Position numbers and translations under genes: made by a program. The notes under the pieces are model-generated. The model was given only the letters and a program-made list of their open reading frames with translations, did not search any database and was not told the DNA's origin. A DNA stretch of 40,535 nucleotides from Vicinamibacterales bacterium (GTDB lineage Bacteria; Acidobacteriota; Vicinamibacteria; Vicinamibacterales; Fen-181), in the NCBI GenBank assembly GCA_036504215.1, contig DASXVO010000089.1:1-40535 (forward strand), in the 5' to 3' direction. This document shows, one piece after another, positions 2 through 40,284 of this stretch; position 1 is the first letter of the stretch, and each line of letters opens with the position of its first letter.

Positions 2-580
2 ATCAGCCCCCATTTCCTGTTCAATACGCTCAACTCGATCGCCTCACTCACCCGGTCGCAGCCCGAAACGGCACGCATCCTCATCGGGAAGCTGGCGAAC
101 CTGCTGAGACAGCGCCTGAAGAGCCGCGACCACTTCCTGACACTGCGCGAGGAACTCGAGGCCATCGACCAGTACCTGGACATCGAGGTGGTCCGCTTCG
201 GCCCGCAGCTCCACGTCGTGAAGCAGATCGCCCCCGAGACACTCGATGCGACGGTGCCGGCGATGATTATCCAGCCGCTCATCGAGAACTCGATCAAACA
301 CGGGCTGTCACTCAAGATCGGTGGCGGCACCGTCACGATCCGCAGCTTCCGCGGCTCCGACCTCACGGTCATCGAGGTCGAAGACGACGGGCTGGGCATG
401 ACCGACGAGCAACTGCGGAATGCGTTCACCGCCGGCATCGGCCTCAGCAATGTGAACGAGCGGTTGAGCGTGACCTACGGCGCGAACTACGGCCTGAAGC
501 TCACGAGCGTCCGGGGCCAAGGCACGTGCGCGCGGATCGAGATTCCCGAGATGACCGCCGCCGAGCGGTTGACGGCATGA
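2..580 (+). CDS. Sensor histidine kinase, LytS/YehU type (C-terminal part)
   Basis: The gene is cut by the left edge; 192 codons remain, in the frame that starts at base 2. It opens with PHFLFNTLNSI, the His_kinase (PF06580) signature in which the His is the autophosphorylation site. It continues with an N-box-like LIENSIKHG, a DDGLGM ATP-binding loop and a GIGLSNVNERL G2 box, and so covers the dimerisation/phosphoacceptor and HATPase_c parts. The missing N-terminus would normally carry the sensor and membrane segments. Four bases separate its TGA from the response regulator at 585, so the two form one transcription unit. The family pairs with LytTR regulators, as here. The signal it senses cannot be told from this fragment. 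Confidence 0.93.
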   Translation: MSPHFLFNTLNSIASLTRSQPETARILIGKLANLLRQRLKSRDHFLTLREELEAIDQYLDIEVVRFGPQLHVVKQIAPETLDATVPAMIIQPLIENSIKHGLSLKIGGGTVTIRSFRGSDLTVIEVEDDGLGMTDEQLRNAFTAGIGLSNVNERLSVTYGANYGLKLTSVRGQGTCARIEIPEMTAAERLTA

Positions 581-34273: not shown

Positions 34274-34362
34274 GCCGGAGTGGCGAAACTGGCAGACGCG
34301 CGGGACTCAAAATCCCGTTCCCTTTACTGGGAGTGTGGGTTCGATTCCCTCCTCCGGCACCA
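34274..34362 (+). tRNA. tRNA-Leu (anticodon CAA), CCA encoded
   Basis: A full cloverleaf can be drawn. The acceptor stem is GCCGGAG/CTCCGGC. The anticodon stem CGGGA/TCCCG holds loop CTCAAAA with anticodon CAA. A long variable arm (GTTCCC...GGGAGT) marks class II tRNAs, the T-arm carries GGTTCGATTCC, and a genomic ACCA ends at 34362. It decodes UUG, the codon that also starts gatE here. The boundary between the uniform upstream genome and the lower-GC downstream strip lies right at its 3' end, a common integration point, though no second copy of the tRNA end is visible. Confidence 0.95.
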
Positions 34363-34856: not shown

Positions 34857-35678
34857 ATGGCCGACGACGAATTCCGGTTGCCCGGGTCTAGTTACGACGA
34901 GCTCATCAAGATCATCATGGGATACGGGCACTTCGATACTGATGTCACTCCCGCCGATGTGGGCGGAATTGCCGGTGTGCACGAGACCCAGGTGAGTCGG
35001 AACAATGCGTTTCTTGTGGCTGTTGGAGTGGTCGAGGGTGGAAGGCGGAAGGTCATAAGTGCCCTCGGACGGAATCTGGCGCTCGCCTTACAGCACAACG
35101 TTCTAGAGGATGTGAGCAAGTACTGGCACCATCTCGTTGCGGCCAATTCGTTCTTTCAGAAGGTACTGGCGGCAGTACGCATCCGTCGTGGCATGGACGC
35201 GTCTACACTCCAAGCGCACGTCGCGTATTCGGCGGGCCAGAAGAAGAGCCCCGCCGTCGTAGCCGGAGCCGCGGCTGTTGTTCAGATAATGGTCGTCGCC
35301 GGGTTACTGCGGGAAGAGGACGGGAAATACGTCGCCATGGACGAAGGGTCTGCTTCAACCCCGACGCCCATTGAGGAGGCCGGAGTTCCGGACCAAGCGA
35401 CGCTGACCACTACCACTGTCACTCGCACCGCGACTCCCGTTCTTCCTCTGCCCTCGACCGCCAGTGCTGCCGCACTTGCTATCCAACTGCAACTCCGCGT
35501 TGACTGTAAGGTAGACGAACTCGACGCCATTGCGGTGAAGTTGAGAAACCTCATTCGGACGTTGTCCGAACCGTCGGAACCGAATCCAACGCCCGCAGAG
35601 GCGCAACGCCGAACCACCGAAGAGCCTGGCGCAACTTCCGCTGCTGAGGAGTCCGCTACGAGACACCCCGGCGAGTAG
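34857..35678 (+). CDS. Unknown protein with two winged-helix-like segments (operon gene 1)
   Basis: A 273-aa cytoplasmic protein that I do not recognise with certainty. Residues 10-75 (SYDELIKIIMGYGHF, VGGIAGVHETQVSRNNAFL, VVEGGRRKVISALGRNLA) and about 92-160 (NSFFQKVLAAVRIRRGM, VVAGAAAVVQIMVVAGLL, DGKYVAM) each read as a winged-helix unit. A Thr/Pro/Ala linker (165-205) follows, then a short segment ALAIQLQLRVDCKVDELDAI. That segment recalls the INIQIHI-type C-termini of DUF5343-like proteins (from memory). The tail is acidic and disordered. GGAGC precedes the ATG. Gene 2 starts 13 bases after its stop. GC is lower by eye than in the genes left of 34 kb. It could be a DNA-binding or regulatory partner for gene 2. 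Confidence 0.75.
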   Translation: MADDEFRLPGSSYDELIKIIMGYGHFDTDVTPADVGGIAGVHETQVSRNNAFLVAVGVVEGGRRKVISALGRNLALALQHNVLEDVSKYWHHLVAANSFFQKVLAAVRIRRGMDASTLQAHVAYSAGQKKSPAVVAGAAAVVQIMVVAGLLREEDGKYVAMDEGSASTPTPIEEAGVPDQATLTTTTVTRTATPVLPLPSTASAAALAIQLQLRVDCKVDELDAIAVKLRNLIRTLSEPSEPNPTPAEAQRRTTEEPGATSAAEESATRHPGE

Positions 35679-35691
35679 GAGGGCTGAGCGC

Positions 35692-36648
35692 ATGGCCCGA
35701 GATTTCTCGCCTGCTACTGCCGAACATGTTGTTTCCGTGGTCGAAGGCGTAGTCGTGAGTCAACAACCCGCGAATGTGGACTACGTGTCGAGTTTCGCCG
35801 ACCTCACTCCTGCTCTGGCGGAAGCGGCGCTAGCACTCGCCTGCGACCTCGGGTTGTTGTCCAAGGACCACTCCGACTACGCTGTAGCAAGCCCTCTCTG
35901 CCGGTTCCTGATAACGCCAAATGGTGCACAGCGGGCAGCAGTCATCCGCGTGCTGCTTGAGTCCTATCCGCCCTTCCTGACGTTCCGCGAACGGCTAGTC
36001 GGAACCGGCAGTGCCTCCACCGCTGCCGGTCAGACGAAGACCGCTCTTGACCTCACGGCACACCGCGAGGAAATCAAAGACACGTTGGTCAGTCTAGGCA
36101 CTTACAGCGATGCCCTCGTCACAGAAGGCGGTGGTCGGTTCGCGCCGCAACCCGCGAATGCTGAGAACCCGCTGGAGGTGCTAGCGTTGGCTGCCGGCGA
36201 CGGAGCTGCTGCGGAAGGACGAATTCGAGCGCAGATTGGGGAAGACGCCTGTCGGCTGGTTTCACGCGAGGACGTCATCGTACCCCTGGCTAACGCTCTC
36301 CTGCGAGCGACAGGCGGAGACCCTCGAGGAGCGGTCGTAGAGGCAGGAAACGCTGTCGAATCCTACCTTGTGGCTCTGGGTGGACGGGCGCAAGTTGAGC
36401 TAACTGGGGCAACCGGAATCAACTCGAAACTGGACAAATTCGACCGTGCGAACTGGTTAAGCAAGAAGCTGGTCTATGTCGGCAAGCACCTAGGCCACGT
36501 GCGGAACGCTGCCGACCACGGCATCGACCCTGAGGTAGGACAGGTCTGGGCGATTCGTCCTTCCACCGCACTGGAATACGTCTTTCACGCATGCTCGTTC
36601 GTGGCGTCAGTCACGACAAAGGAGTTGGGCAGGCAAGCTGAGATATAG
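35692..36648 (+). CDS. Putative HEPN/Abi_C-type protein (operon gene 2)
   Basis: A 318-aa protein. The N-terminal half (about 1-150) is helical and winged-helix-like (LAEAALALACDLGLLSKDHSDYA, split by eye), similar in style to gene 1. The C-terminal part (about 195-310) begins with an amphipathic helix VVEAGNAVESYLVALGG and contains HLGHVRNAADHG. There R271-N-A-A-D-H276 matches the Rx4-6H motif of HEPN ribonucleases and the RN..xHG segment of Abi_C (PF14355) abortive-infection proteins. A further helix, STALEYVFHACSFVASV, is in the place typical of HEPN folds. GGAGGG lies eight bases upstream of the ATG. RNase toxicity is inferred from this motif only; DNA or RNA targets are unknown. It is followed by a GC-rich hairpin. 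Confidence 0.75.
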   Translation: MARDFSPATAEHVVSVVEGVVVSQQPANVDYVSSFADLTPALAEAALALACDLGLLSKDHSDYAVASPLCRFLITPNGAQRAAVIRVLLESYPPFLTFRERLVGTGSASTAAGQTKTALDLTAHREEIKDTLVSLGTYSDALVTEGGGRFAPQPANAENPLEVLALAAGDGAAAEGRIRAQIGEDACRLVSREDVIVPLANALLRATGGDPRGAVVEAGNAVESYLVALGGRAQVELTGATGINSKLDKFDRANWLSKKLVYVGKHLGHVRNAADHGIDPEVGQVWAIRPSTALEYVFHACSFVASVTTKELGRQAEI

Positions 36649-37660: not shown

Positions 37661-38440
37661 CTATGGGGACGAGCGACGTTTCTTCTGTACGAGTTCGGCC
37701 TCGCGGTGGCGATAGCTCTCGCCTTCGATGCGAATGATCTCGGCGTGGTGGGTGAGCCGATCCACGAGCGCGACCGCGCAGGAGGCGTTCGGAAACACGG
37801 TGTTCCAGTCTTTGAAGGCGAGATTCGTGGTCAAGACGATGGAGCGCTGCTCGTAGCGCCGGCTGACGATCTGAAAGAGGAGGTCGGCGGCGCGGGCGTC
37901 GTAGGCCAGATAGCCGATCTCGTCGATGGCCAAGACGTGCGGACGCGTGTAGGCGCGCAAGCGTCGTTCGAGGCCGCGGGCGGTGTCCTGCCCGTTCAGG
38001 TCGAGCAAGAGATCAGAGGCCGTGACGAAGAGCGCGGAATGGCCGGCCAGCACGGCCTGGTGGACGAGGTTCTTCGTCAGCATCGTCTTGCCGAGGCCCT
38101 GGTTGCCGACCAGGACGATGTTCTCGCCTTTGGCAATGAAGTCGAGCGAGAAGGCGCGGTCGACCGTGGGACGGTGCAGCTGCTTGGGCCAGTCCCATTC
38201 GAAATCCGCGACGGGCTTGAAGCGGCCGAGCCGGGCGCCGCGGAAGCGGCGTTCGAGGCGACGGCGCGCCCGGTCTTCGATCTCGGTGTGGACGAGCGTT
38301 TCGATCACGACCAGCGGACTCCAGCGTTTCTGCGTGGCGCGCGCGATGAGGTCGTTGAGGGTGTCGGCCGTGTAGGTCAGGCCCAGTCGCTGCAAGTAAA
38401 TGGTCAGTGCCGGGGTCGTCGTCGGTGTCGCTGAGTGCAT
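37661..38440 (-). CDS. istB: IS21-family helper ATPase IstB
   Basis: The 259-aa AAA+ (DnaC-like) ATPase assists the IS21 transposase and selects target DNA. Walker A is in VLVGNQGLGKTMLTKNL, Walker B in VLAIDEIGYLAYD, and sensor-type residues are in SIVLTTNLAFKDWN. The N-terminal IS21-specific domain (TIYLQRLGLTYTADTLNDLI, RRFRGARLGRFKPVADFEW split by eye) is complete and the length is normal. The ATG at 38440 fits the family start; the frame open to 38632 lies within istA. It appears intact, so it could act in trans for related copies even if istA here is dead. Confidence 0.94.
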   Translation of the reverse strand: MHSATPTTTPALTIYLQRLGLTYTADTLNDLIARATQKRWSPLVVIETLVHTEIEDRARRRLERRFRGARLGRFKPVADFEWDWPKQLHRPTVDRAFSLDFIAKGENIVLVGNQGLGKTMLTKNLVHQAVLAGHSALFVTASDLLLDLNGQDTARGLERRLRAYTRPHVLAIDEIGYLAYDARAADLLFQIVSRRYEQRSIVLTTNLAFKDWNTVFPNASCAVALVDRLTHHAEIIRIEGESYRHREAELVQKKRRSSP

Positions 38441-39902
38441 CGTAGGTCTCCAGTCGTGGTGGGGTGAGATCCAAGTCCCGGACGCCCGGGCGGTCGGGCA
38501 GGACGACCGGCAGCGGGGGGCGTTGGCCCCGCTGGCGGCGCCGGGTGTCCAGGATGTGCGCGAGACTGCCGGCGCCCAGCGCATCCCGTTCGAGCGCGAT
38601 CGCGACGGCGATGGAGCATTCGGCGGGGCCATAGTCGTCGAGGAGCGCGAGCAAGCGGTGCGTGTGGAGCCGCAAGGACTCGCCGCGGGCGGCCAGCCGC
38701 TCCAGCAGGGTCACGGTCGCGGGGACGGCGAGGCGCAGGCGATCGCGGCCGGTGTGGAGGTTCTGCTGCCGGGTGGCGGCGATCAGCCCCTCGACGTGCG
38801 CGAGGTCTTCGATCGTCTGACCGGTATCGTAGCTGCGTGCGTGCCGCGCAATCTCCTCGCCGCCATCGATGAGCCGGACGGTGGTCGCCTCGACGATCAG
38901 CGTCAGCGGACGCCGGACGTAGGCGTGCGGAATCGAGTAGCTGTTCCGGTCGAAGCGGACGTACGCGAGCTTGCCGGAGACGACGGGCCGGACGAGCGCG
39001 GTCTCGAAGGGATGCGCCGGGAGCGGCAGCAGGCGCGGCTGTTCGTCGGCGAAGACGGCCGCGACGGGGCGGTCGCGCTGCTCCGGGTGCGGCCGCTGAT
39101 GGGCGTGGGTGTCGCGCCACTGCCGGAATTGCGCGTTGAGATCGTCGACGTCGCCGAAGGTCCGCGCGGCGAAGAAGGCATCGCGCAGGTAGCGGATCTG
39201 GCGCTCGACGCGCCCCTTCTCATTCCCGCGCGCCGGCGTGCAGGGGCGGACGGCGAAGTGATAGTGGCCGGCGAGTTCCAGCAGCCGGGGATGAAAGCGG
39301 ATCGCCGTGCCCTGGCGTTCCAGCACCGCCGTCTTGAGGTTGTCGTACACCAAGGTACGCGCACACCCCTGAAACGCCTGAAACGCCTCGACGTGGCCAC
39401 GCAGAAAACTCTCGAGCGTCTGATCGAGCGTGAAGAGCGCGAAGAGGGCGCGCGAGTACTACAGGACCATCACGAAGCCGGACAGCAGGCGCGTCCCGTG
39501 ACCGATACGGACCTGCCCAAAACTGCCCCAGTCGACCTGGGCCTCCTCCGCGGCCAGGACGACGAGTCGCCGGTACAGCCGCGGCGCGAGGGACGGCCGG
39601 AGCCCGCGGACTACCCGGCGGACCTGCACGGCCGATCCGTCGTAGCCGCGCGACGTGAGCATGGCGTGCAGACGGGTGGCCCGCAGGCGCGGGTACTGCT
39701 CGAGCGTGTCACGGATGAAGGGCAGAAAGGGATCGAGCTTGGTCCGGCGACAGGAACGACACGGCAGCGCGCGCCCCTCGAGCGCGACCGCCGCGCGGAC
39801 CGTGTCATGGTGGACGCCGAGGTTGGTGGCGAAAGTGCCGACCTTCCAGTGCTCGCCGTAATAGAGGCGGCGAATCTCGGCGTGTTGCTCGGGCGTGATC
39901 AT
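38013..39902 (-). pseudogene. istA: IS21-family transposase IstA with an in-frame amber codon
   Basis: The frame begins at the ATG at 39902 (GAGGAG upstream) with an N-terminal HTH (EHWKVGTFATNLGVHHDTV). The DDE residues are D124 (AQVDWGSFGQ), D187 (LVYDNLKTAV) and probably E233 (GNEKGRVERQ). A TAG at codon 148 (39461-39459) lies between the first and second catalytic Asp, where relatives have Cys or Ser (SGFVMVL-stop-YSRALF). No frame change occurs; the sequence continues in phase to codon ~500. It then overruns the start of istB by 428 bases to a stop at 38013, unlike the short istA/istB overlap normal for IS21. Unless the stop is read through or is a sequencing error, no active transposase is made. 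Confidence 0.85.
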
Positions 39903-40284
39903 CAGGCTCCTCTCTCGACGCGCGCGGCGACCGCCAGGTCGGCAGCACCACCCAGGCACTCTGCCGACCACAGACCACGCAGCACGGCGTGGCGACGACC
40001 GGCACGGGCACGTCGGCGGTCACGAGTGTGTCCGCGGGGGGCGGCGGCGTGGAAGTCTGATCCGTCACGCGACGGCGCGCGCGGTAGGCGCGTTGGTGAT
40101 CCCGATAATCGAGCCGCCCCTCGACGCTCGCCTGATGCCGCGCCTTCGCCGCGGCGACGACGCGACGACGCCCGGCGGACCGACAGGTGTCCGAACAGTA
40201 CGCGTGGCCGCGATCACACGACACGCAGATCGCGAAGAGGGTCTGGCACGTTCGGCAGGGCCGCTGACGGAGTGGCACGTCCAT
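39805..40284 (-). CDS. IS21-associated cysteine-rich accessory protein
   Basis: A 159-aa frame. The first half has a double zinc-ribbon-like pattern: CRTCQ near residue 10, then CVSCDRGHAYCSDTC. A basic helical stretch follows (RRRVVAAAKARHQ, YRDHQRAYRARRRVT), and a CCVVC lies near residue 110. I recall small proteins of this design just upstream of istA in some IS21-like elements; their role is unknown. The frame overlaps the istA start by about 98 bases. The true C-terminus may end earlier, because the last ~35 residues are antipodal to istA coding sequence and look non-specific. The ATG at 40284 is chosen; an upstream start at 40314 is possible. Confidence 0.6.
   Translation of the reverse strand: MDVPLRQRPCRTCQTLFAICVSCDRGHAYCSDTCRSAGRRRVVAAAKARHQASVEGRLDYRDHQRAYRARRRVTDQTSTPPPPADTLVTADVPVPVVATPCCVVCGRQSAWVVLPTWRSPRASREEPDDHARATRRDSPPLLRRALEGRHFRHQPRRPP

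Follow-up and report, generated by a model that had tools for sequence, protein, structure and literature searches.

HEPN ribonucleases do the cutting in many immune systems, which differ in the way the nuclease is switched. Combinations of a HEPN effector with a DNA-binding partner are known, and tRNA is a frequent substrate of HEPN enzymes. The predicted RNase site of HEPN domains is an Rx4-6H motif; it has also been described that divergent HEPN families can escape profiles, that HEPN domains without the catalytic motif exist and that DUF4145 is a HEPN family (PMC3710099). In the type IX retron-Kva2 one complex contains both a winged-helix protein and a HEPN RNase; the latter is released by a phage DNA-binding protein and cuts tRNA, has no canonical motif and uses the distant residues H64 and R122 instead (PMC13405049).

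The two adjacent genes presented here are located in the window, by which the whole analysed stretch of DNA (40,535 nucleotides from a Vicinamibacterales bacterium) is meant. The pair looks like an undescribed anti-virus or toxin-antitoxin module of unrelated bacteria and probably also of an archaeon, and both proteins are nameless in the databases searched. As in a type IX retron, a winged-helix protein and a HEPN protein are encoded together, but gene 2 of the window has the canonical Rx4H motif and a winged helix of its own. No reverse transcriptase was recognised by inspection among the ORFs around the pair, no known msr-msd or other Rfam RNA was found near it except the tRNA (Rfam comprises curated families only), and PADLOC returned no match for the pair. 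It can be said that the pair may represent the winged-helix and HEPN core of type IX retrons working without the retron. HEPN/MNT toxin-antitoxin systems (HepT-MntA, SO_3166-SO_3165) are alike in being two-gene modules in which the HEPN toxin carries an RNase motif and matches the C-terminus of gene 2 structurally, whereas their partner is a minimal nucleotidyltransferase and that of the window a tandem winged-helix protein. This winged-helix protein is the only conserved partner here, and the same kind of partner is met with two HEPN families. A tail-bearing tandem winged-helix protein combined with a winged-helix/HEPN protein, without retron or nucleotidyltransferase, is in none of the libraries searched, the one of papers missing most subscription journals.

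The features of the locus are collected in Table 1. Both ARAGORN and Rfam place a tRNA-Leu(caa) gene 494 bp upstream of gene 1, so that the position downstream of a tRNA gene given in an earlier sequence-only reading is correct. The same holds for the two co-directional genes with ribosome-binding sites described there: the genes are 13 bases apart on the same strand and are preceded by plausible Shine-Dalgarno sequences (GGAG for gene 1 and AGGAGG for gene 2). Both ORFs are considered real genes because homologous proteins occur elsewhere at 33-54% identity and because third codon positions differ between homologues about twice as often as second ones (0.66-0.77 against 0.32-0.41); judged by this codon comparison, gene 1 and gene 2 are under protein-level selection. 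Before gene 1 only weak operator-like inverted repeats are present, none of them common to the other loci, and a sigma-70-like promoter was sought there and not found.

Table 1. Features of the gene pair and of its surroundings (nucleotide positions refer to the window, residues to the respective protein)
Feature	Position	Strand	Basis and remarks
tRNA-Leu (caa)	34274..34362	+	ARAGORN, Rfam RF00005; likely integration hotspot upstream of the pair
Gene 1, tandem winged-helix protein, 273 aa	34857..35678	+	ORF, predicted structure, VIA-align matches, 5-sequence alignment
Gene 1, first winged helix (wH1)	residues about 12-68		predicted structure
Gene 1, second winged helix (wH2)	residues about 98-161		predicted structure
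Gene 1, C-terminal strand-helix tail	residues about 203-237		conserved in 5-sequence alignment
Gene 2, winged helix + middle + C-terminal HEPN, 318 aa	35692..36648	+	ORF, AlphaFold2 model, VIA-align matches, 6-sequence alignment
Gene 2, winged helix	residues 9-77		VIA-align matches to winged helices
Gene 2, conserved middle region	residues 78-158		alignment; low model confidence
Gene 2, HEPN domain	residues about 184-315		AlphaFold2 model and VIA-align
Codons of the Rx4H motif R271-N272-A-A-D-H276, predicted HEPN active site	36502..36519	+	sequence; 6-sequence alignment

The AlphaFold2 model of gene 2, for which an alignment of three sequences was the input, has a mean pLDDT of 69. It is confident at residues 10-70 and from about 170 to 311 (mostly 80-95 over residues 170-280, 59-88 beyond), poor between and weak at 78-158, and for this low-confidence middle no solved match is found among the VIA-align matches listed. 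The five best VIA-align rows are without exception solved HEPN domains, namely 2hsb (Z 11.8), 1wol (10.9), 1ufb (10.8), 1o3u (10.8) and human sacsin (10.5), with 113-122 aligned residues and rmsd of 3.3-4.2. The C-terminus was also matched to HEPN toxins (5yep Z 9.5, 6m6w Z 9.3, 7ae8 Z 8.2), the HepT toxins among them scoring 9.3-9.5. Taken by themselves, the Foldseek E-values for gene 2 are weak (1o3u 0.2), and among helical bundles 11.8 counts as a moderate Z, yet HEPN domains occupy each of the top five rows and the catalytic motif sits where it belongs. The HEPN motif was defined as Rx4-6H with a polar residue after the arginine, near the end of the third helix, and such a motif is carried by gene 2: R271-N272-A-A-D-H276 (Rx4H) stands at the end of helix 258-276, which is the third helix of the C-terminal bundle. 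R271, N272 and H276 are invariant in six of the six gene 2 sequences (22-54% identity, alignment of six loci), the spacing in the archaeal relative being Rx5H instead of Rx4H. According to the model and the alignment, the C-terminus of gene 2 is a HEPN fold with a canonical Rx4H motif, and the protein is predicted to be an RNase. The helical C-terminal domain with R271-N-x3-H276 had already been picked out in the sequence-only reading, where the lack of a HEPN bundle in the predicted structure and the loss of R271/H276 in homologues were named as grounds for abandoning it; the bundle is present in the model and neither residue has been lost.

Searches of Pfam, NCBIfam, PADLOC and PDB sequences gave no above-threshold family for either gene, and the profile search of PDB sequences returned nothing useful. 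No HEPN family profile of Pfam or NCBIfam exceeds its curated cut-off for gene 2. The best Pfam hint is DUF4145 (PF13643; residues 209-280, E 0.025), whose 15.1 bits lie below the cut-off of 23.1, so by the Pfam rule gene 2 is not a member; DUF4145 is also weak (E 0.029) over the HEPN region of the homologue in locus L004. Since divergent HEPN families escape profiles, the missing match limits the family name of gene 2 and not its fold. The label “Abi_C-like”, given to gene 2 earlier, has to be withdrawn, as Pfam contains no Abi_C match at E<=5. What stands of the candidate new module proposed at that time is a winged-helix/HEPN pair found in no described system searched, and what falls is the Abi_C part of its description.

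The model of gene 1 comprises two winged helices with pLDDT of about 90 over residues 10-160, a flexible or disordered linker of low confidence and a strand-helix tail, also of low confidence. The “IQLQL” C-terminal segment is conserved across the family in the alignment of five sequences, and two winged-helix units followed by a short segment of this type are what had been read from the letters. Gene 1 was matched by VIA-align to the recognition half of FokI/Nt.BspD6I and to MarR/MntR winged helices. Among the matches listed, both winged helices are covered at once only by Nt.BspD6I and the FokI recognition half (Z 10.0 and 8.4, 160-162 aligned residues, rmsd 3.7, about 11% identity), although these Z values are tied with many single winged-helix matches. 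The likeness concerns tandem winged helices over about 160 residues, whereas gene 1 is devoid of a nuclease domain. The winged-helix model and these matches support the earlier suggestion that gene 1 is likely the DNA-binding partner of gene 2. Residues 1-160 of gene 2 (window 35692-36171) give a co-linear but weak alignment with gene 1 (hhalign P 0.007), by which the genes would be partial paralogues; shared ancestry of gene 1 and the N-terminal half of gene 2 is not claimed, this value being too weak.

Membership of gene 1 in DUF5343 (PF17278; PADLOC candidate PDC-M34A) was considered and rejected: there is no Pfam match, none of five members matches in PADLOC, and the profile comparison with DUF5343 proteins is not significant. 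By eye the tail, with regard to an IxIxIxI strand followed by a helix, looks similar in the gene 1 family and in DUF5343 proteins, and the gene 1 homologue of locus L058 matches PDC-M34A over the tail (E 0.0015). DUF5343 proteins were not detected on plasmids at E 1e-5, and the names DUF5343, TIGR02391 and PDC-M34 were not found in the literature searched, which misses most subscription journals.

A genome search revealed a second genome of the window's phylum whose gene 2 is 50% identical. The contig scan returned this relative (L005, Acidobacteriaceae MAG) together with L004 (Deltaproteobacteria MAG), and L013 and L014 were added by a gene 2 profile search of 297 genomes of the phylum of L004. 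In all five independent bacterial loci, which include the window and belong to two phyla, gene 2 follows gene 1 in the same direction at a distance of 2-13 bp; two adjacent co-directional genes that travel together, as reciprocal searches indicate, are also typical of type II toxin-antitoxin systems. Gene 2 is rare and patchy (2/396 and 3/297 genomes), and in the window's class it was found in one genome of the 193 searched and in no other member. The gene 1 profile, applied to 693 genomes (396 and 297), found only genomes with gene 2, plus G450 (E 1.9e-24), and no orphan. The joint occurrence of the two families, put forward earlier as a check, is confirmed, for they are together in every genome found.

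In G450 (L058) 3 bp separate the end of the gene 1 homologue (hhalign P 4.7e-18) from the Hypoth_Ymh/TIGR02391 HEPN gene that follows it, and in L022 a Hypoth_Ymh gene is directly preceded by a DUF5343 protein whose tail is of this kind. These two arrangements indicate that the winged-helix partner stays with the HEPN gene though the HEPN family changes. DUF5343 and Hypoth_Ymh pairs are similar to the window pair in having an “IQLQL”-type-tail protein directly before a HEPN gene, and L058, with its DUF5343-type tail and TIGR02391 partner, links the two; the difference is that gene 2 is longer (winged helix, middle and HEPN) and lies outside the Ymh family. TIGR02391 genes do not generally have such a partner: six of them on plasmids are without an annotated gene-1-like neighbour. 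Two further observations concern DUF5343 proteins. At L016:778-1920 (minus strand) the protein encoded after a strong PDC-M34A/DUF5343 gene has 174 aa, an RNxxxH stretch and no HEPN family match, and is possibly an unrecognised HEPN partner. In L018, L019, L020 and L021 (window's phylum) a DUF5343 protein is flanked, always in the same order, by a SecA C-terminal gene, a protein of 156-174 aa and an SPFH-like gene; this context is housekeeping-like and without HEPN.

A relative of gene 2, 22-26% identical and with R, N and H kept, is encoded on a Haladaptatus plasmid (L003). Its convergent neighbour P0002, which overlaps it tail-to-tail, contains winged-helix-like repeats and a tail of the type seen in gene 1. 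Together with a Halobacterium relative, P0002 can be aligned co-linearly to the gene 1 family (hhalign P 6.6e-4 locally), so homology of this haloarchaeal protein to gene 1 is probable. The helicase adjoining the Haladaptatus gene was considered as a fused gene 1 and shows no similarity. On a Halobacterium hubeiense plasmid (L023:3635-6846) the gene-1-like P0004, with winged-helix-like repeats and tail, has a protein of 139 aa on one side and a DUF87 ATPase gene on the other, which is a different set of partners. G661 also matched the gene 2 profile (E 2.4e-4), through the winged helix of a methyltransferase-like protein; this match is at fold level only and was dropped. Except for one haloarchaeal plasmid, no relative was found in viral contigs, phage records and plasmids, and three of the five bacterial copies lie outside recognisable defence islands.

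The GC3 of the pair (0.65 and 0.63) differs from that of seven neighbouring genes (0.81-0.92). In a congener (L048:333-1815) and in a genome of the same family (L047:4590-5802) tRNA-Leu(caa) is directly followed by a tyrosine integrase and phage genes. The low GC3 and the prophages carried by this tRNA in relatives mark the pair as mobile, and by these sequence signs it is horizontally transferred, in agreement with the tRNA-proximal variable region assumed in the sequence-only reading. No att boundary is drawn for the window copy because no direct repeat of the tRNA 3' end occurs downstream within the window; attC sites flanking the pair were also considered and none is credible. In a third related genome a protein-kinase-like gene stands beside tRNA-Leu(caa) (L046:5486-7188).

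Taken together, we lean towards a toxin-antitoxin-like abortive-infection module, in which gene 2, the HEPN RNase effector, would be held and triggered by gene 1. This is placed ahead of direct DNA sensing, transcriptional regulation and a three-gene system, in this order. In its favour are the predicted HEPN fold, the invariant Rx4H, the tandem winged helices, the conserved pairing, the horizontal transfer and the retron-Kva2 precedent. In the proposed mechanism gene 2 would act in dimeric form, with R271 and H276 of the HEPN domain serving to cleave cellular RNA, and growth would stop. The tandem winged helices of gene 1 would bind DNA, possibly on the promoter of the operon itself, while its C-terminal tail would couple to the HEPN protein and keep it silent; the contact through the tail and the direction of regulation are guesses. 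Infection, in the form of foreign DNA or of a phage DNA-binding protein displacing gene 1, is supposed to release the nuclease and lead to abortive infection. The RNase activity, the repression and release by gene 1 and the abortive outcome are inferred. Should the pair protect against phage, it would be among the simplest DNA-sensing, RNA-cutting switches.

It is less probable that the pair is a direct DNA-sensing defence without antitoxin, where gene 1 recognises a sequence or structure of foreign DNA in a FokI-like manner and switches on a gene 2 that is non-toxic until triggered. The Nt.BspD6I/FokI recognition half as the only listed match to both winged helices, and the lack of a nuclease domain in gene 1 itself, are consistent with it, but tandem winged helices are common, single-domain MarR/MntR matches lie in the same Z range, and a self-protection feature such as a methylase was not found beside the pair. 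A broader and equally tentative idea is a minimal, undescribed immune module, common to bacteria and haloarchaea and with exchangeable HEPN families, in which a free-standing FokI-like winged-helix DNA sensor would switch a winged-helix/HEPN ribonuclease without reverse transcriptase, nucleotide messenger or guide. It seems unlikely that the two proteins are a housekeeping or mobile-element regulatory pair which controls transcription and in which the HEPN-like domain is a non-catalytic interaction module. Winged helices are present in both proteins, and there are known HEPN domains that lack the catalytic motif (PMC3710099); against this, R, N and H are invariant over six loci down to 22% identity, whereas non-catalytic HEPN families lose the motif, and the patchy occurrence (2/396 and 3/297 genomes) with foreign base composition argues against housekeeping.

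In two of the loci the pair has neighbours that deserve mention. In L005 a gene for a SLATT_4 two-transmembrane effector, which matches 2TM effectors in PADLOC, stands directly downstream of the pair (L005:2069-2623). The region L004:4665-7155 contains an integron integrase (TIGR02249, 370 bits, cut-off 265), a RelA/SpoT-domain gene ending in an attC-like hairpin and then the pair, and it is a chromosomal integron with conflict-type cassettes; being first after the integrase and followed by the hairpin, the RelA/SpoT gene looks like a separate cassette. These neighbours would fit a three-part system whose third effector varies (SLATT membrane protein or RelA/SpoT synthetase) and was lost from the window copy, which is very improbable given the separate cassette in L004, the pair standing alone in L013, L014 and the window, and no SLATT or RelA/SpoT remnant in the window. 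Further along the window, an IS21-like element is present at 37661-39971 (minus strand); its IstA part appears split across two frames (39459-39971 and 38013-39353), so the element may be inactive or may carry a sequence error.
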